This document shows positions 14,908 to 21,602 of a stretch of DNA of 32,899 nt, in pieces. How positions within the stretch are numbered: position 1 is the stretch's first letter; every line of letters begins with the position of its first letter. Made by a program: the position numbers and the translations under genes. The notes below the pieces were generated by a model. The model searched no databases, was not told the origin of the DNA, and worked only from the letters and a program-made list of their open reading frames with translations. The DNA is taken from assembly GCA_905479995.1 (NCBI GenBank), contig CAJQON010000049.1, positions 1-32,899 on the forward strand, written 5' to 3'. Source of the DNA: an uncultured Flavobacteriales bacterium (GTDB taxonomy: Bacteria; Bacteroidota; Bacteroidia; Flavobacteriales_E; Vicingaceae).

Positions 14908-17163
14908 ATGAAACGAACCCTACTACTCTTCACACTCATCAATATACTTTTTATTAACATTACTATAGCTCAAACTAAATTTTTTAGATCAGACTCTATT
15001 ATAGTATTAGCAGTTAACGGAGACACGTTGCAAAATCCTTGGACAGGAGGTTTTAATGCAGTTCAATTTTCTGAAGTTGATTTAAACATTGATGGAGTAA
15101 TGGATCTTTTTGTTTATGACAGAACTGGAAACAAAATATCAACCTTTATTAATGCCGGAATACCAAATACAATTCAATACAAGCACGAACCTTACTACCA
15201 ACAATTTTTTCCAAATGACTTAAACGGATGGGTACTCTTAAGAGATTACAATTGTGATGGAAAAGTCGATTTGTTTACATCTTATAAGGGTGGTATAGCA
15301 GCTTATAAAAACAACTCAACTACTCAGTTAAGTTTTGAGTTAGACACCAATCAGCTTTTTAGTGATTCTCAACCCGACTCAATCAACCCTGTTTACCAAA
15401 ACATATTTTTAAGCAGTGCAGATATTCCTGCTTTTGATGACATAGATAATGATGGAGATTTAGACCTTTTAGCCTTAAGTAATGTAGGCGACAGAGTGGT
15501 ATATCACAAAAATATGTCTATGGAAAAGTATGGCAACTGTAGTGCCTTAGATTTTCAAGTTAGAAACAAATGTTGGGGATATTTTAAAGAAAATGCACTG
15601 ATAAATCAAGTAGTTTTATACGACACTTGCACAATTAATATTGGTAGCCCTGAAAAATCTACTCCAAGAGACAAGCACATTGGAGGATCTTCATTTTTCA
15701 CACTAGATGTTGATGGGAACAACAGTAAAGACCTTGTTATTGGTGGCAACTCATTTAAGGATTTACTTCTACTTATTAACAGCGACTTAAGCCCTAACCT
15801 TACAGCTTCATCAGTAAGCAGTCAAAATACTAATTTCCCCTCCAACACAACTAGTACATCAGCGGTAAACATTGATCATTTTCCAGCAGGATTCTACATA
15901 GATGTAAACAACAACAACATTAAGGATTTAATCGCTTCAGCAAATTGCACCTTTTCTTGTCAAGACATGAAAAATGTTTGGCACTATGAAAATACTGGAG
16001 CAAACAACAATCCAGATTTCAATTTTACTTCCAATTCATTTCTTCAAGATGACATGATAGAAATAGGTTCGGGCGCTCACCCAGTGTTTTTTGATTATAA
16101 TGCTGATGGTTTGGACGATATAATTATTGGAAATTACGGATACTACGAACCTCTTGTTACTGAGTTTTACATCTCTTCTTTGTGGCTTTACGAAAACATT
16201 GGAACACTAACCAAACCAAGATATCAATTGGTAGATTCTAATTATTTAAACATACCAAGTCTCGACTTAGATTTGTTTAGCACAAGAAAAACCTTATCTA
16301 TAATACCATGCTTTGGTGATATTGATGGAGATGGAGATGAAGATTTATTACTAGGAGATTACCTCGGTCATTTACACTATTTCGAAAATTCTGCTGGCCC
16401 AGGAAATCCTGCTTCATTTAGCTTAACACAAGCTGAATATGCCGGACTTGATGTTGGAACAAATGCTTCTCCACAACTAATAGATTTAAACAGAGATAAT
16501 TTACTTGACCTAGTTATTGGTAAGGAAGACGGTTTTATTAGTTACTATGAAAACACTGGAACTGCTTTGGCACCTATTTTCACTTTAACAACTAACTCCT
16601 TAGGAAATGTTCACACCAAACGACCAAGCGACTTTAAAGGAAATAGCACTCCATTTGTTTATGATGACGGTGGAACATATTCAATACTTTCTGGCTCTAA
16701 CCACGGAGCACTCTTTAAATTTACCAACATTGATGGAAACCTAGGTGGTACATTTACTGCAGACACTTCTTATCTTGGTATTTGGGAAGGTATTCAATCA
16801 ACAATAAACATGAATGACATTAACAATGATGGTGTTATTGATTTTATAATTGGAAATTATGCTGGAGGAGTATCCATGTATCAAGGATATACACCAAACA
16901 ACATAAGCTCCTTCCAATATTCACAATCATCAATTAACATATATCCTAATCCTGCAAAAGACCAATTAAACGTAACTATAAATGATGATGATATTAAAAT
17001 TGACTTTGTTACAATTTTAGATTTATCAGGAAAAGTATTGTTTTCTGAAAAAACAGAAAATACGAGCATTATTATAAACCTAAATGGCATTTCTAAAGGA
17101 ATTTATTTTGTAAAAGTGAATACTATCAATGGTTATACAACAAAAAAATTTATTAAAAATTGA
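14908..17163 (+). CDS. Secreted FG-GAP/VCBS-repeat protein with T9SS type A sorting domain
   Basis: This 751-residue protein is exported by Sec and then probably by the type IX system to the cell surface or outside. A signal peptide covers residues 1-21. Several FG-GAP/VCBS beta-propeller repeats follow, with calcium-loop motifs such as DIDNDGDLD, DYNADGLDD, DIDGDGDEDL and DINNDGVIDF. The last 80 residues form a type A C-terminal sorting domain, with INIYPNPAKDQLNV, a DLSGKVLF strand and a GIYFVKV...KKFIKN end. Such proteins often take part in adhesion or carry other domains, but no catalytic domain is visible here. It lies directly upstream of the metal cassette, 76 bases before the next ATG, with no terminator seen, so read-through is possible. 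Confidence 0.9.
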   Translation: MKRTLLLFTLINILFINITIAQTKFFRSDSIIVLAVNGDTLQNPWTGGFNAVQFSEVDLNIDGVMDLFVYDRTGNKISTFINAGIPNTIQYKHEPYYQQFFPNDLNGWVLLRDYNCDGKVDLFTSYKGGIAAYKNNSTTQLSFELDTNQLFSDSQPDSINPVYQNIFLSSADIPAFDDIDNDGDLDLLALSNVGDRVVYHKNMSMEKYGNCSALDFQVRNKCWGYFKENALINQVVLYDTCTINIGSPEKSTPRDKHIGGSSFFTLDVDGNNSKDLVIGGNSFKDLLLLINSDLSPNLTASSVSSQNTNFPSNTTSTSAVNIDHFPAGFYIDVNNNNIKDLIASANCTFSCQDMKNVWHYENTGANNNPDFNFTSNSFLQDDMIEIGSGAHPVFFDYNADGLDDIIIGNYGYYEPLVTEFYISSLWLYENIGTLTKPRYQLVDSNYLNIPSLDLDLFSTRKTLSIIPCFGDIDGDGDEDLLLGDYLGHLHYFENSAGPGNPASFSLTQAEYAGLDVGTNASPQLIDLNRDNLLDLVIGKEDGFISYYENTGTALAPIFTLTTNSLGNVHTKRPSDFKGNSTPFVYDDGGTYSILSGSNHGALFKFTNIDGNLGGTFTADTSYLGIWEGIQSTINMNDINNDGVIDFIIGNYAGGVSMYQGYTPNNISSFQYSQSSINIYPNPAKDQLNVTINDDDIKIDFVTILDLSGKVLFSEKTENTSIIINLNGISKGIYFVKVNTINGYTTKKFIKN

Positions 17164-17239: not shown

Positions 17240-17629
17240 ATGACAAAGCACTTTAAACATATAACTTGTATTAGCCTAGCAGTAATTTTACTGTCTGCGA
17301 GCTTTCATTTTACGGTTTATAAAATGGAGTGCCTAATTAGCGGAAACACACAAATAAGCCTCTCTGATTTTGGTGAATGCAATGAAACAACAACTGGACA
17401 AAACATCATTAAAGAAACATGTTGCAGCTTTGACCAATTTAACATAGACTTTGATGTAGAATCTAATGTGTCACCTAAAATTCTACTTGCAACAACCTTA
17501 ACTAAAACTATAATTACCAATTATACTACTCAACCAATTGCTCAAAAAATAAGTCTAAACTTTGCTTCCAACCTTCCGCCCCCCGGTGGAACCGACCTAT
17601 TAAAATCTATACAAGTTTTCAGAATCTGA
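17240..17629 (+). CDS. Small exported Cys-rich protein, HYC_CC_PP-like
   Basis: This is a 129-residue protein with an N-terminal hydrophobic export segment (about 8-24). It has Cys31, Cys47, a CC pair at 61-62 and a C-terminal NLPPPGG motif (112-117) ending in QVFRI. The layout (cysteine near the end of the hydrophobic segment, a central CC, a late PP) resembles the HYC_CC_PP family of small Bacteroidota proteins found next to metal-related TonB receptors; the HYC motif itself is degenerate here (HFTVYKMEC). I start it at the ATG 17240 rather than the TTG at 17231. Its place just before a TonB receptor and an HMA protein suggests a periplasmic metal-binding or delivery role, possibly copper. 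The function is inferred. Confidence 0.75.
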   Translation: MTKHFKHITCISLAVILLSASFHFTVYKMECLISGNTQISLSDFGECNETTTGQNIIKETCCSFDQFNIDFDVESNVSPKILLATTLTKTIITNYTTQPIAQKISLNFASNLPPPGGTDLLKSIQVFRI

Positions 17630-17649
17630 TTCAATTTAATTGATCCAAC

Positions 17650-17686
17650 TTCCCATTTACAGTTTTACTTAAAAGCTTAATGGGAA
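17650..17686 (+). other. Stem-loop between the Cys-rich gene and the TonB receptor gene
   Basis: TTCCCATT (17650-17657) and AATGGGAA (17679-17686) form an 8-base stem with a 21-base loop that can partly pair again. It lies in the 85-base gap inside the cassette and lacks a T tract right after it, so it looks more like an attenuator, mRNA stability element or operator than a full terminator. Confidence 0.5.
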
Positions 17687-17714
17687 ACCTTTATTTACTT
17701 CAATTAAAAGAATT

Positions 17715-19928
17715 ATGAAAACAAAAAATATATTAATACTCATCTGCATCCTGATTTCCAATTTGGTTTCTGCTCAAAAAACCATTCAAGGTTTTGTTTT
17801 TGAGAACAGCCAACATGACGGAAAGATGAAGAAAGAAGCCATTCCATTTTCGAACATCTACTGGAACGGAACTAATAATGGGGTTGTAGCTGATGAAAAC
17901 GGAAAGTTTAAAATTGCTGAACCAACATCTTACCCAGCACAATTAATTGTAAGCTTTGTAGGCTTCCAAACTGACACAATTCGCTTAAACTCATACACCA
18001 AAAAACTAGACATAGTACTAAAAAGCACTGTAAATCTTGGTGAATTTGAATTAAAAGCCAAACAGGCAAGCACCTTTATAAACACTATAGACCCACACTA
18101 TGCAGAAACAATAACGGCTAAAGAACTTGGAAAAGCAGCGTGTTGTAATATTTCAGAAAGTTTTGAAACCAATGCTTCTGTAGATGTTAATGTAACTGAT
18201 GCTGTATCGGGAACAAAAAAAATTCAAATGCTTGGTTTGGATGGTATTTATACTCAAATTCAGTATGAAAACCTTCCTCTTGTAAGAGGCCTTTCATCTG
18301 CCTACGGTCTTACATTTATTCCGGGAACACAAGTTGAATCTATTCAAATTAAAAAAGGAGCAGGATCTGTTTTAAATGGTTATGAATCCATCACTGGACA
18401 AATTAATTTAGAACTTCAAAAACCTGATAAAGCAGAAAAACTTTATGTAAATGTTTACGCAAATTTAATGTCTCGTGCAGAAATAAATGTTCAAGCAGCT
18501 CAAAAAATTAACGACAAATGGTCTTCAATAACAATGGCTCATGCTAGTAGTCAAAGTTTAGAACACGATAAAAATGAAGATAATTTTTATGACACTCCTA
18601 TAAGATCGCAATACAATTTATTTCATCGTTGGAAATATGCTGGTGAAAAACGTTTTTTTCAAGCTGGTTTTAGAGCCGTTTCTGATGACTTATCATCAGG
18701 ACAAATCAAAGCCAATCCAAGAGAACCTCTGTATTATATTGGAGCAAAGACAAAACAGTTAGAGCTTTTTAGTAAAAATGGTTTTCTTTTCCCTAAAACG
18801 CCTTACAAGAGCATAGGAATAATAAATAGTTTTAGAATTCATGACCACCAATCTACTTACGGATCGAATACTTTTGACGCCAAACAATATAGTGGATATT
18901 TGAATGTTATTTATCAAACTATTATTAAAACTACAGCAAACACTTTAAAGTTTGGAGGTAGTTGGGTATATGACAACTACGATAAAAACTTAAACAAATC
19001 ATACAAGTTTGGAAAAATTGAAAGCGTTCCTGGAGCATTTATGGAATATGCCTATAACGATGATAAAAAAACTGCTATTGTTCTTGGTTTAAGAGGAGAT
19101 TATCACAATAAATTTGGCGCATTTTTAACACCAAGAGCCCATTACAAATATAATTTTACCGACCGGTCTGCCTTTAGACTTTCTGCAGGAAGAGGATTTA
19201 GAACTGCTAACCCTATCATTGAAAATTTAGGTGCGCTAGCAAGCTCTAGAACTATTATTTTAAACGAAAATGAACTGTTGCCTGAAATTGCATGGAATTA
19301 TGGAAGCAGTATTACCCACCAATTTGATGTTTTTGACAAAGAGACCAATTTCTCTATAGATTATTATTTTACTGATTTTAGCAATAAGGTTGTCGTAGAT
19401 TACGAAAAACCTAGAGAAATCTCCTTCTACAACCTAAACGGTAAGTCATACTCTCATAGTTTTCAAGTAGAATATAGCATAGAGATTACCCCTACTCTGT
19501 CATTAAAAACTGCCTATAAATGGTATGATATTAAAACAGATTTTAACGATGGATCAAAAACAAAACCTTTAACCCCAAAAAACAGGATTATAGCCAATAT
19601 AAGTTATGTCACCAATTTTGATAAATGGAAATTTGATTTAACAGGTCATTGGTTTGAGCAAAGCAGGTTACCTAGTACAGCAATAATGCCTATTGACTAT
19701 GTAGCACCAACTGACCCAGAATCGTATTATACTTTTAATGCTCAAATAACTAGAACCTTTAAAAAATTTGAAGTTTATGTAGGTGGAGAAAACCTTTTAA
19801 ACTACAGACAAGATAATCCGATTATAACGCCAGAAGATCCTTTTGGCCCAAACTTTGATGCTTCCTTAGTCTGGGGGCCAATAGTTGGACGAAATATTTA
19901 TTTCGGATTACGATTTAAAATTAAATAA
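17715..19928 (+). CDS. TonB-dependent outer-membrane receptor, probably for metal
   Basis: This is a 737-residue outer-membrane receptor that imports a ligand with energy from TonB. It has a signal peptide at 1-20, a carboxypeptidase-D-regulatory-like beta-sandwich domain at about 23-105, a plug domain at about 125-235 and a 22-stranded-type barrel to the end. The plug carries an unusual Cys-Cys pair (KAACCNISESFETN, Cys 143-144), then VDVNVTDAVSGTKKIQMLGLDG, a pattern I associate with receptors lying beside HMA-domain proteins. No Ton-box can be set with certainty. The gene lies between a small Cys-rich protein and an HMA protein (19-base gap), which points to a metal such as copper as ligand. 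This is inferred; a metallophore complex is also possible. Confidence 0.87.
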   Translation: MKTKNILILICILISNLVSAQKTIQGFVFENSQHDGKMKKEAIPFSNIYWNGTNNGVVADENGKFKIAEPTSYPAQLIVSFVGFQTDTIRLNSYTKKLDIVLKSTVNLGEFELKAKQASTFINTIDPHYAETITAKELGKAACCNISESFETNASVDVNVTDAVSGTKKIQMLGLDGIYTQIQYENLPLVRGLSSAYGLTFIPGTQVESIQIKKGAGSVLNGYESITGQINLELQKPDKAEKLYVNVYANLMSRAEINVQAAQKINDKWSSITMAHASSQSLEHDKNEDNFYDTPIRSQYNLFHRWKYAGEKRFFQAGFRAVSDDLSSGQIKANPREPLYYIGAKTKQLELFSKNGFLFPKTPYKSIGIINSFRIHDHQSTYGSNTFDAKQYSGYLNVIYQTIIKTTANTLKFGGSWVYDNYDKNLNKSYKFGKIESVPGAFMEYAYNDDKKTAIVLGLRGDYHNKFGAFLTPRAHYKYNFTDRSAFRLSAGRGFRTANPIIENLGALASSRTIILNENELLPEIAWNYGSSITHQFDVFDKETNFSIDYYFTDFSNKVVVDYEKPREISFYNLNGKSYSHSFQVEYSIEITPTLSLKTAYKWYDIKTDFNDGSKTKPLTPKNRIIANISYVTNFDKWKFDLTGHWFEQSRLPSTAIMPIDYVAPTDPESYYTFNAQITRTFKKFEVYVGGENLLNYRQDNPIITPEDPFGPNFDASLVWGPIVGRNIYFGLRFKIK

Positions 19929-19947
19929 TTACCTAAAAATAGAAAAC

Positions 19948-20301
19948 ATGAAAAACTTAATCATACTAATAATCATAACATTATTTGCCTTAAGTACTAC
20001 TAATGTTGTTGCTCAAAAAGCGAATAAAACCGATACAATTTCCATAAAAACATCTAGTCAATGTGGCATGTGTAAAGCACGATTAGAAAAAGCGATGGCT
20101 TATGAAAAAGGAATTGTTTCTTCTGAATTAAATGTTGCATCAGCAACCCTATCTGTAGTGTATAAACCAACAAAAACGAGTCCCGAAAAAATAAGGTTGG
20201 CAATTAGTGCCGTTGGATATGATGCCGATGCAGTGAAAGCCAACCAAAAAAGCTATAATGGGTTACCAGCTTGCTGCAAAAAAGGAGGCATGGATCATTA
20301 A
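19948..20301 (+). CDS. Exported heavy-metal-associated (HMA) domain protein
   Basis: This is a 117-residue protein with a signal peptide at 1-22, so it acts in the periplasm rather than the cytosol. The HMA fold follows at about 28-98, with the metal-binding CGMC motif (Cys 39 and 42) in the CxxC position typical of CopZ/MerP proteins. The C-terminus adds a second Cys/His cluster, ACCKKGGMDH (Cys 109-110, His 117). I chose the ATG at 19948 because it gives the signal peptide; the longer frame begins inside the receptor gene. It is the last gene of the cassette and is followed at once by a strong terminator. The likely role is to accept or pass on a soft metal ion such as Cu(I). Confidence 0.88.
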   Translation: MKNLIILIIITLFALSTTNVVAQKANKTDTISIKTSSQCGMCKARLEKAMAYEKGIVSSELNVASATLSVVYKPTKTSPEKIRLAISAVGYDADAVKANQKSYNGLPACCKKGGMDH

Positions 20302-20302
20302 T

Positions 20303-20332
20303 AAAAAAGGCTCCAAAATTGGAGCCTTTTTT
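20303..20332. terminator. Bidirectional terminator between the HMA gene and cysN
   Basis: The inverted repeat AAAAAAGGCTCCAA / TTGGAGCCTTTTTT (20303-20316 and 20319-20332) gives a GC core with A and T runs on both sides. The HMA stop ends at 20301 and the convergent cysN stop begins at 20337, so it can serve both genes. Confidence 0.9.
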
Positions 20333-20336
20333 ATTG

Positions 20337-21602
20337 TTAAACTATCATTGCAGCGCCAACTGTTTCGTTGGTGGCCTCATCTATAAAAATGAGACTTCCT
20401 GTAGATCTGTTTCTTGAATATTTATCAAACATTAAAGGCTTAGTAGTTCGAATGGTAATTCTAGCAATTTCATTCATACTTACCTCTTTATCATCTTCTA
20501 TTCTATGTAAATTATTAACGTTGATCTTGTATTTTACCTCTTTAATAATACAACGTACATCATTTGAAGTATGTTTAATGGCGTATTTACCATTGGGCAC
20601 CATCTTTTTCTCATTTAACCAACAAACCATCACATCCATGTCCTGATCAACCTCTGTTTTATTGTTTTCTCTAACAATCATATCTCCTCTACTGATATCA
20701 ATGTCATCTTCCAGTGTCATACACACAGACATTGGTGCAAAAGCCTGTTCTAAACTTCCTTTTTCTGTATCGATCGATTTAACTTTAGAAGTAAACCCTG
20801 AAGGCAATACCATTACCTCATCACCTGGTTTAAACACTCCACCAGCAATTCTACCTGCATAACCTCTATAATCAGGGTATTTCTCAGACTGAGGTCTTAT
20901 AACTGTTTGAACAGGAAAACGACAATCAATGTGATTGTAATCACTACCTATGTGAATATTTTCAAGCAAATACATTAAGGTTGAACCCTGGTACCAATCC
21001 ATATTTTCAGAAGCATGTACCACGTTATCTCCTTTTAATGCACTAATTGGTACAAATCGAATATCCTTCACATCTAGCTTAGATGAAAATGCTTCTAAAT
21101 CAGCTTTAATTTTTTCAAATACAGCTTCATCGTAATCCACCAAGTCCATTTTATTAATACAAAAAACAACATGAGGAATCCCCAATAAAGCAGAGATAAA
21201 TGTGTGTCTACAAGTTTGTTCAACTACTCCATGACGGGCATCAACCAAAATTATTGAAAGGTTAGAAGTAGATGAACCAGTAACCATATTTCGAGTATAC
21301 TGAATATGACCAGGAGTATCTGCAATTATAAACTTTCGTTTAGGTGTAGCAAAATAACGGTAGGCCACATCAATGGTAATCCCTTGCTCACGTTCAGCTC
21401 TTAAGCCATCCGTTAATAAAGCAAGGTTTACATTTTCATCGCCTTTTCTTCTACTAGATTCTTCTATTGCTTCATATTGATCCGTAAATATTGATTTCGA
21501 ATCATATAAAAGTCTTCCTATTAACGTACTCTTACCATCATCAACACTTCCTGCTGTTGAAAACCGTAAAAGTTCCATATCTAAGTATGAGTTTGTTTCC
21601 AT
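20337..21602 (-). CDS. cysN: Sulfate adenylyltransferase, GTPase subunit
   Basis: CysN is the GTPase subunit of ATP sulfurylase; GTP hydrolysis drives CysD to form adenylyl sulfate (APS) from sulfate and ATP. The 421-residue protein has the P-loop GSVDDGKS at 18-25, the G3 motif DTPGH and the G4 motif NKMD in an EF-Tu-like G domain, then two beta-barrel domains. There is no fused APS kinase (CysC) domain. A second ATG at codon 9 is a possible start. The gene begins 2 bases after the cysD stop, so the two are translated from one mRNA. No APS kinase, PAPS reductase or sulfite reductase gene is in the window, so whether APS feeds reduction or sulfation cannot be told. Confidence 0.96.
   Translation of the reverse strand: METNSYLDMELLRFSTAGSVDDGKSTLIGRLLYDSKSIFTDQYEAIEESSRRKGDENVNLALLTDGLRAEREQGITIDVAYRYFATPKRKFIIADTPGHIQYTRNMVTGSSTSNLSIILVDARHGVVEQTCRHTFISALLGIPHVVFCINKMDLVDYDEAVFEKIKADLEAFSSKLDVKDIRFVPISALKGDNVVHASENMDWYQGSTLMYLLENIHIGSDYNHIDCRFPVQTVIRPQSEKYPDYRGYAGRIAGGVFKPGDEVMVLPSGFTSKVKSIDTEKGSLEQAFAPMSVCMTLEDDIDISRGDMIVRENNKTEVDQDMDVMVCWLNEKKMVPNGKYAIKHTSNDVRCIIKEVKYKINVNNLHRIEDDKEVSMNEIARITIRTTKPLMFDKYSRNRSTGSLIFIDEATNETVGAAMIV

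Follow-up and report, generated by a model that had tools for sequence, protein, structure and literature searches.

What joins the three genes at positions 17240–20301 of this contig into one set? They encode a small exported cysteine protein, a TonB-dependent receptor (TBDT), and an exported protein with an HMA domain, and they lie in a stretch of 32,899 nucleotides (contig CAJQON010000049.1 of an uncultured Flavobacteriales bacterium), the whole of which we call the window. An earlier note on this DNA had seen in them a relay that could pass copper or another soft metal between cysteine ligands in the outer membrane, the periplasm, and possibly at the inner-membrane face. From the sequence comparisons below, the three genes are probably a copper-uptake unit that occurs across much of the Bacteroidota, and the small first gene has the look of a leader peptide that senses copper, as CutF and CruR do, and not of a part of the relay. 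With modest confidence and at somewhat better than even chances, we favor the reading that the three genes are an operon for copper acquisition headed by a copper-sensing leader of its own.

The second gene of the set (17715–19928, plus strand) encodes 737 aa with a signal region, a CarboxypepD_reg-like domain, a plug, and a barrel. Its Pfam matches are CarbopepD_reg_2, Plug (PF07715), and the barrel (PF00593), the last two over cut-off, and it is a TBDT. Its cysteines are at positions 11, 143, and 144, and past the signal region the sole cysteines are the pair Cys143-Cys144 in the plug (18141–18146, plus strand), marked by the conservation of its motif KAACCNxSESFxTN in relatives. When named genomes were searched with the receptor using patterns free of Cys-Cys, 23 loci were returned, with receptors of 36–72% identity to that of the window, and the Cys-Cys stands in the motif KAACCN in the window and in 23/23 relatives. 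For a sample of the phylum, we used a 68-residue plug profile, Cys-Cys columns included, against 296 Bacteroidota genomes, and 77 genomes had one match of at least 71 bits, the next match being at 40 bits. By this profile, Cys-Cys columns and all, the window receptor belongs to the family that we define here as CC-plug TBDTs. The pair is present in 77/77 of these receptors, a count to be read with the Cys-Cys columns of the search profile in mind; five variants that carry it (ACCNLSEAF, ACCDL[SA]GCF) were missed by our script pattern and are visible in the output. The 77 loci include the window and leave out L030 as a duplicate of L159. Exactly two cysteines past residue 25 are found in 49/68 unfused receptors. 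We do not count as evidence the invariance of the pair in a 26-row plug alignment, which was partly picked on Cys-Cys.

In the class Bacteroidia, the plug profile matches 254/346 genomes at an E-value of 1e-10 or better (matches in which the Cys-Cys was not read, and a few of which lie near the limit), once in 247 genomes and twice in 7 by our own count of the table. Judged by profile matches, the CC-plug TBDT is nearly core and mostly single-copy in this class. In an alignment with Cir that is weak (11 bits for the stretch), the plug Cys-Cys falls where the first plug helix region begins; in TBDTs this region is on the periplasmic side, close to the TonB box. Two statistical comparisons were set aside. 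A Fisher test linking the plug Cys-Cys to HMA linkage is void because its pattern missed the five Cys-Cys variants; the pair does not vary among the receptors and thus says nothing on HMA linkage. A cross-check of the receptor against CuA oxidase subunit II (COX2, in 219/296 genomes) was dropped as uninformative with no statistic drawn, both distributions probably following phylogeny; receptor-positive genomes with no COX2 match include G238 and the six genomes of a group we call f4.

The third gene (19948–20301, plus strand) encodes an exported protein of 117 aa with cysteines at 39, 42, 109, and 110, of which the first two form a CxxC at residues 39–42 (codons at 20062–20073) and the last two a tail Cys-Cys (20272–20277). 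It matches Pfam HMA (PF00403) at 31 bits against a cut-off of 24.8, and reaches 24.8 bits with the MerP model (TIGR02052) against a curated cut-off of 92.55; by the curated cut-offs it is an HMA protein and not MerP. Its structure model, with a mean pLDDT of 84.6, was used for secondary structure only. None of the 18 aligned HMA rows, that of the window among them, departs from the CxxC or from the tail Cys-Cys.

The receptor and this protein are also tied by natural fusions. In 9/77 loci, a tail-CC HMA lies in the receptor open reading frame (ORF), and in the six printed sequences the CC-plug receptor has a single HMA domain or a pair of them on its N-terminal side, every one of these domains carrying both the CxxC and the tail Cys-Cys. 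The plug Cys-Cys is kept in all nine fusions, two of which were checked with Pfam. On a quick receptor tree, in which 17/74 inner branches remain open, one-HMA and two-HMA fusions form two separate supported clades, and the HMA arrangement (fused, upstream, downstream, or absent) changes at least nine times. Such reshuffling, together with fusion in which the partner is kept, is good evidence that the receptor and the HMA protein work together, and the nine fusions among 77 loci support a direct hand-over from plug to HMA.

The HMA-plus-tail module is also found in other fusions. It stands at the C-terminus of CusB-type RND adaptors in L055 (6998–8593, identified by Pfam, with a heavy-metal-binding domain), L107 (5702–7285), and L115 (6992–8572), the latter two identified by similarity, and it is joined to a DUF3347-type domain in L075, L093, L094, L102, L103, L104, L108, and L120 (Pfam for L093 only); several of these DUF3347-type fusions lie near P-type ATPase or CusA-like genes. 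The window's own genome has a second tail-CC HMA gene on contig 50 (L036, 7236–9328), with a TetR-like-looking gene upstream and, following it, a thioredoxin-like protein and then a GCC-containing barrel-like protein, neither with a Pfam match. A similar thioredoxin-like/barrel-like pair follows the cassette in L023, and L126 has, close to an ORF that resembles COX2, a fusion of HMA with a barrel-like protein.

HMA-type matches are common (253/296 genomes at an E-value of 1e-3), so that adjacency and fusion are what count. Among the 77 TBDT loci, 55 have a linked tail-CC HMA, which in 9 is part of the receptor ORF and in 46 is encoded no more than 1.2 kb away in the same orientation. A small Cys protein precedes the receptor in 56 loci, recognized in 44 by the profile and in 12 by a CC..PP pattern only, and 42 loci have both partners. 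Since 8/77 rows lie within 1.5 kb of an end of the stretch examined, mostly a contig end, part of the absences will be artifacts. In the 23 named-genome loci, read by eye, the gene just upstream encodes a small Cys protein in 21/21 (L005 and L008 being cut), in most cases with Pro-Pro near the C-terminus, and a tail Cys-Cys HMA is downstream in 16/21 (L001 and L015 being cut); it was not seen by eye in the ORF lists of L007, L014, L018, L019, and L021. On the quick receptor tree, the small protein switches between present and absent at least 15 times, a number that may reflect missed detection. Rarity of the trio in related genomes had been set beforehand as the finding that would speak against the earlier note, and the trio instead travels together in many genomes. 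The cysteines it had singled out are likewise conserved (77/77 for the plug pair and 18/18 HMA rows for CxxC and tail), and its account of three clustered genes ending at one terminator holds at this locus, where the gaps are 85 nt between small protein and TBDT and 19 nt between TBDT and HMA and where one intrinsic-terminator-like hairpin (20299–20336) closes the set. This hairpin, with a U-run on one side and an A-run on the other, lies between convergent genes and has a z of -6.6 against shuffles of 20290–20345; it is absent from the list of a simple terminator scan. The three-gene set as such is not described in the open-license literature that we searched.

The assembly of the window is 3.1 Mb, and the closest relatives among named genomes are assemblies of Flavobacteriales, including one named Vicingaceae. 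Directly upstream of the cassette, at 14908–17163, is a gene whose product is a secreted FG-GAP protein that carries a type IX sorting tail, and a gene of FG-GAP-like appearance also precedes the cassette in L002, L006, and L020, so that gene order around the cassette is conserved. In L154–L157 and L162 (11905–14133), the CC-plug receptor is a variant with one more cysteine (ACCDL[SA]GCF) and has no linked tail-CC HMA. L162 belongs to pHALHY01, a Haliscomenobacter plasmid that also has genes for CusA/CzcA, an adaptor, and a P-type ATPase. In L162 and L157 a small upstream protein resembles a degenerate HMA domain by inspection. L160 (NZ_OY725762.1), from Parabacteroides distasonis "plasmid 17," carries ftsK, trxB, smpB, and metH and looks like a mislabelled chromosome fragment.

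The small first gene (17240–17629, plus strand, ATG start) encodes 129 aa with a hydrophobic N-terminus by inspection and cysteines at 10, 31, 47, 61, and 62; its Cys-Cys codons are at 17420–17425 and a Pro-Pro-Pro is encoded at 17576–17584, with the stop 14 residues further on. In 17 aligned rows, Cys31, Cys47, Cys61-Cys62, and Pro115 are invariant at 16–42% identity to the window, and seven further small proteins were placed in a separate alignment. Outside its Cys and Pro motifs, the protein is less conserved than its partners (in L002, for example, 42% versus 72% and 74%). The NCBIfam model NF047658 (HYC_CC_PP) matches neither the window protein nor anything in its genome. Among seven relatives in the same slot, L016 and L018 pass this model, L017 falls below the cut-off, and L004, L009, L014, and L020 are unmatched, and a second HYC gene of L004 passes the cut-off. 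A profile-profile comparison of the two small-protein groups gives 94% probability, and the small protein thus appears to be a divergent relative of HYC_CC_PP.

The reason for considering a leader is the resemblance to CutF of Rhodobacter capsulatus (PMC9973294) and to CruR, which the excerpts of the literature that we used describe as short, exported proteins with cysteines and, at the C-terminus, a Pro motif; both sense copper during synthesis and control the next gene. Under the CutF-like rule of PMC9973294, proteins are shorter than 150 aa, as are the window protein and 73/84 family members, and the next gene on the same strand is within 1000 nt, which here is 85 nt away. The spacing from Cys-Cys to Pro is narrow, 51–57 residues for the central 80% of 84 members, and the median distance from Pro run to stop is 15 residues. 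In five of the six f4 genomes, all with two-HMA fusions, a different Cys-rich protein with a C-terminal PP takes the first slot; the three with printed ends finish in IWQPPK plus two residues, which fits the CutF-like PP rule. The f4 genomes are presumably Chryseobacterium-like. Upstream of their two-HMA fused receptors, L123, L124, L135, L136, and L158 (5/6 f4) have response regulator and histidine kinase genes, one of each checked with Pfam. The small protein looks as though it works in the manner of CutF and CruR while not being classed with them.

A leader of this kind would be expected to communicate with the gene that follows it, and the RNA across the gap has a structure that joins the two. 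Folding of 17600–17740 (z of -4.07) pairs 17615–17621 with 17716–17722, 17627–17632 with 17710–17715, and 17635–17643 with 17700–17708 (17615–17722 overall, plus strand), around an inner hairpin of 17650–17657 with 17679–17686. In this structure, the last codons and stop region of the leader are paired with the start region of the receptor, its AUG included; an intergenic structure over the start of the next gene is a feature of CutF itself and lies outside the published CutF-like rule. Folding from the receptor stop to just past the HMA start shows no structure. We compared 84 distinct gaps after profile-detected HYC-type genes with 150 control gaps drawn at random from 541 at the same loci, and the median folding z is -2.69 versus -1.11 (p = 1.5e-8), with a stop/start helix of at least four pairs in 61/84 versus 48/150. 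Of 13 control gaps leading into a TBDT, 9 follow a small CC-containing protein that the profile missed, and several are structured, so that here the comparison errs, if at all, on the side of strictness.

To compare pairing across species, we calculated the duplex energy between gap ends in dissimilar gaps and exchanged the partners between species in 5000 swaps. For gaps from HYC to TBDT (48 of 59), the true energy is -8.80 versus -4.39 kcal/mol when swapped (sd 0.32; 0/5000). For the 17 gaps from HYC to HMA it is -6.39 versus -4.54 (1/5000), and for the 8 from HYC to other genes -7.51 versus -5.42 (103/5000), while gaps from other genes into HMA (14 of 15) give -3.13 versus -3.00 (1885/5000). 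The difference between true and swapped partners goes far beyond the small effect in control gaps (given with the objections below), and we conclude that the stop/start pairing is kept by compensatory change. A MAFFT/RNAalifold analysis of seven close gaps did not show the stop/start helix, with the window misaligned, and gave two inner hairpins with some compensatory changes; we therefore prefer the family-wide partner-swap test.

Could the small protein instead be a stable periplasmic copper carrier, one of three members of a thiol relay alongside the receptor and the HMA protein? All three linked proteins have conserved cysteines and the small protein is exported by inspection, as such a carrier would be. 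Against this, it is upstream in 56/56 loci where it was detected (L148 has an additional downstream pattern match), no ORF in 100 HMA-centered loci was tagged as both the small protein and a partner, and another Cys/PP protein can fill its slot. The upstream-only slot, the low conservation outside the motifs, the replacement in f4, and the covarying helix that ties the small gene to the next one point to a cis-acting leader and not to a carrier, and we consider a three-part relay unlikely. The relay of the earlier note is therefore kept in part: the context leans toward copper and the step from plug to HMA is backed by the nine fusions, but its three-member ligand chain is not supported in that form. 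The Cys/His cluster that it noted in the HMA tail consists in the window of the Cys-Cys and a single C-terminal His and is not a rich one, and nothing found places any component at the inner-membrane face.

Returning to a copper-acquisition operon with its own leader, we propose the following order of events. The leader would be exported, and copper on its emerging cysteines would alter translation near its Pro-Pro/C-terminal end, as we infer from CutF and CruR. The position of the ribosome at the end of the leader may then decide whether the long-range stop/start helix, for which there is covariation, can form, which would set receptor output. The TBDT, energized by TonB as its family is, would import a copper species, and the conserved plug Cys-Cys, expected at the periplasmic mouth, would capture the metal as Cu(I). 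The HMA protein, free or, as in the fusions, on the receptor N-terminus, would take the metal by thiol exchange through its CxxC and tail Cys-Cys and carry it onward in the periplasm.

Copper is the best reading of the metal, judged from relatives and neighboring genes. The profile of the HMA protein has 46 solved relatives, mostly copper ATPases and CopZ, few other kinds having been solved. In L004, the cassette is followed by the second HYC_CC_PP gene and an RND gene nearest to E. coli CusA (620 bits; 386 for ZneA). The excerpts of PMC11213822 name three copper-binding methionines of CusA, and the L004 RND has Met at the three positions that we take to be these, with an assumed numbering offset of 7 residues. 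The same HYC_CC_PP and RND gene pair is found in L007, CopA-type ATPases stand beside the receptor in L065 and L146, and an RND gene is 70 bp away in L149; in L084 and L155, pump genes are more distant or on the opposite strand.

A number of observations weigh against a copper-acquisition operon headed by a sensing leader. In the partner-swap test, control gaps to other genes (114 of 122) also differ, at -5.65 versus -5.14 kcal/mol (50/5000), and the swaps keep neither relatedness nor base composition, a feature that the controls share; the mean unpaired probability of the start region is 0.47 after HYC genes versus 0.53 in controls (p = 0.007), a modest difference. DUF2946 (PF11162) is not among the matches of the 17 and 7 small-protein family members at an E-value of 5 (it is in no protein of the window's own genome and over cut-off in 2/148 Bacteroidota genomes), the PPP at 113–115 of 129 puts the start of PP 16 residues from the end, missing the published rule of within the last 15 by one, and the Pro motif is missing in 8/84 relatives even with a pattern that also accepted Pro-Ala. 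In the AlphaFold model of the receptor, the plug is below 50 pLDDT, which is too poor for Cys-Cys geometry. A linked tail-CC HMA is missing in 22/77 loci, some at contig edges; the variant receptor with ACCDL[SA]GCF stands without one in four of the 77, and one variant is in a Haliscomenobacter plasmid heavy-metal efflux island. Parabacteroides distasonis has the trio, but its HMA is without the tail Cys-Cys, and this species is a gut anaerobe with little obvious copper need. As to the metal, the solved relatives of the HMA profile include domains of MerP and of zinc pumps, the HMA protein scores best among its sub-threshold NCBIfam matches with MerTP (32.3 bits) and next with CopZ (29.0), and BLAST with a few pump queries found a pump in just 5/77 loci.

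Some of these observations would suit a copper or silver resistance cassette, in which the receptor and the HMA protein serve efflux or periplasmic detoxification. This would account for the RND genes of the CusA/CzcA type directly downstream in L004 and L007 and the one close by in L149, for the many receptor-less HMA loci with RND or P-type ATPase genes nearby, and for the HMA module on CusB-type adaptors and the variant receptor of the Haliscomenobacter plasmid. TonB-dependent receptors are importers, however, and the receptor is nearly core and mostly single-copy in Bacteroidia; in many Flavobacteriaceae-like loci it lies among genes that we take to be core (groEL, rpsO), and BLAST found a copper-type pump in just the five loci mentioned. 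For the set as a whole we find this account improbable, although the variant receptors and the P. distasonis copy mean that some members may have a resistance role.

It is quite unlikely, in our view, that the same architecture handles another soft metal such as zinc, cadmium, mercury, or silver. The MerTP match and the MerP and zinc-pump relatives would fit, as would the report in the excerpts of PMC9973294 that CutF-like leaders are not all copper-specific, but copper HMA domains dominate the solved relatives, with the bias already given, and the neighbors are CusA-type and CopA-type where pumps were typed. We hold it very improbable that the Cys-Cys pairs serve in redox switching or in a disulfide relay and not as metal sites: vicinal cysteines can form disulfides and thioredoxin-like-looking genes follow the second HMA gene of this genome and the cassette of L023, yet the HMA CxxC has copper-chaperone relatives and some loci have copper-type neighbors.

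If the copper-acquisition reading is right, its reach may be wider than this operon. We put forward tentatively, and at less than even chances, that HYC_CC_PP proteins and their WQPP-ended stand-ins are Bacteroidota-wide metal-sensing arrest peptides that set both copper import (TBDT) and export (CusA), and that the CC-plug TBDT passes plug-thiol Cu(I) straight to a free or tethered HMA chaperone. This would be a TBDT with a built-in periplasmic acceptor; to our knowledge, how a TBDT passes its metal to the periplasm is an open question. Copper uptake in Bacteroidota and TBDT hand-over both become testable, in Flavobacterium, through a near-core, mostly single-copy receptor whose plug has a conserved Cys-Cys and which is in nature sometimes fused to its chaperone. 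Should the leader reading hold, nascent-chain metal sensing would extend to proteins beyond the DUF2946 model, and HYC_CC_PP, an unexplained NCBI family, would gain a function. In the literature searched, as far as its excerpts go, no dedicated Bacteroidota copper-uptake system is described, except that a genome survey (PMC11213822) offers a single OprC-like guess.

Among known systems, OprC of Pseudomonas aeruginosa is also a copper TBDT, but the excerpts consulted have it binding copper through CxxxM-HxM outside the cell and not through a plug Cys-Cys. The chaperones MerP and CopZ likewise have an HMA domain with CxxC, but the window protein is below their curated cut-offs, and their usual partner is an inner-membrane transporter or ATPase, not a TBDT. 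HYC_CC_PP (NF047658) occupies the same slot in many loci and has Cys-Cys and Pro-Pro motifs, but leaves the window member unmatched, and the library states no function for it. Closer to the proposed leader is CutF of cutFOG, as excerpted from PMC9973294, with which it shares probable export, a C-terminal Pro motif, and a stem-loop over the start of the next gene; copper binding is described for CutF, which differs in regulating a multicopper oxidase and in belonging to DUF2946, unmatched by the window protein. The same excerpts report many CutF-like proteins in Bacteroidota, with TonB-like proteins among their commonest downstream neighbors, and the general leader idea is thus partly anticipated there. 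The nearest parallel in gene order is the Bordetella pertussis copper TBDT operon cruR-crtA(bfrG)-bp2921, headed by CruR (excerpts of PMC9426467 and PMC12914433), where a small exported Cys protein with a C-terminal Pro-Pro comes first and a TBDT second in a copper context. In those excerpts, CruR differs in having DUF2946, a CXXC, and RAPP near its C-terminus and in acting through Rho across a 162-bp gap, CrtA differs in having no conserved Cys or Met, and the third gene is PepSY_TM and not HMA. The CruR family likewise fixes its Cys-to-Pro spacing (PMC9426467, in excerpt), as do the small proteins of the cassette described here.

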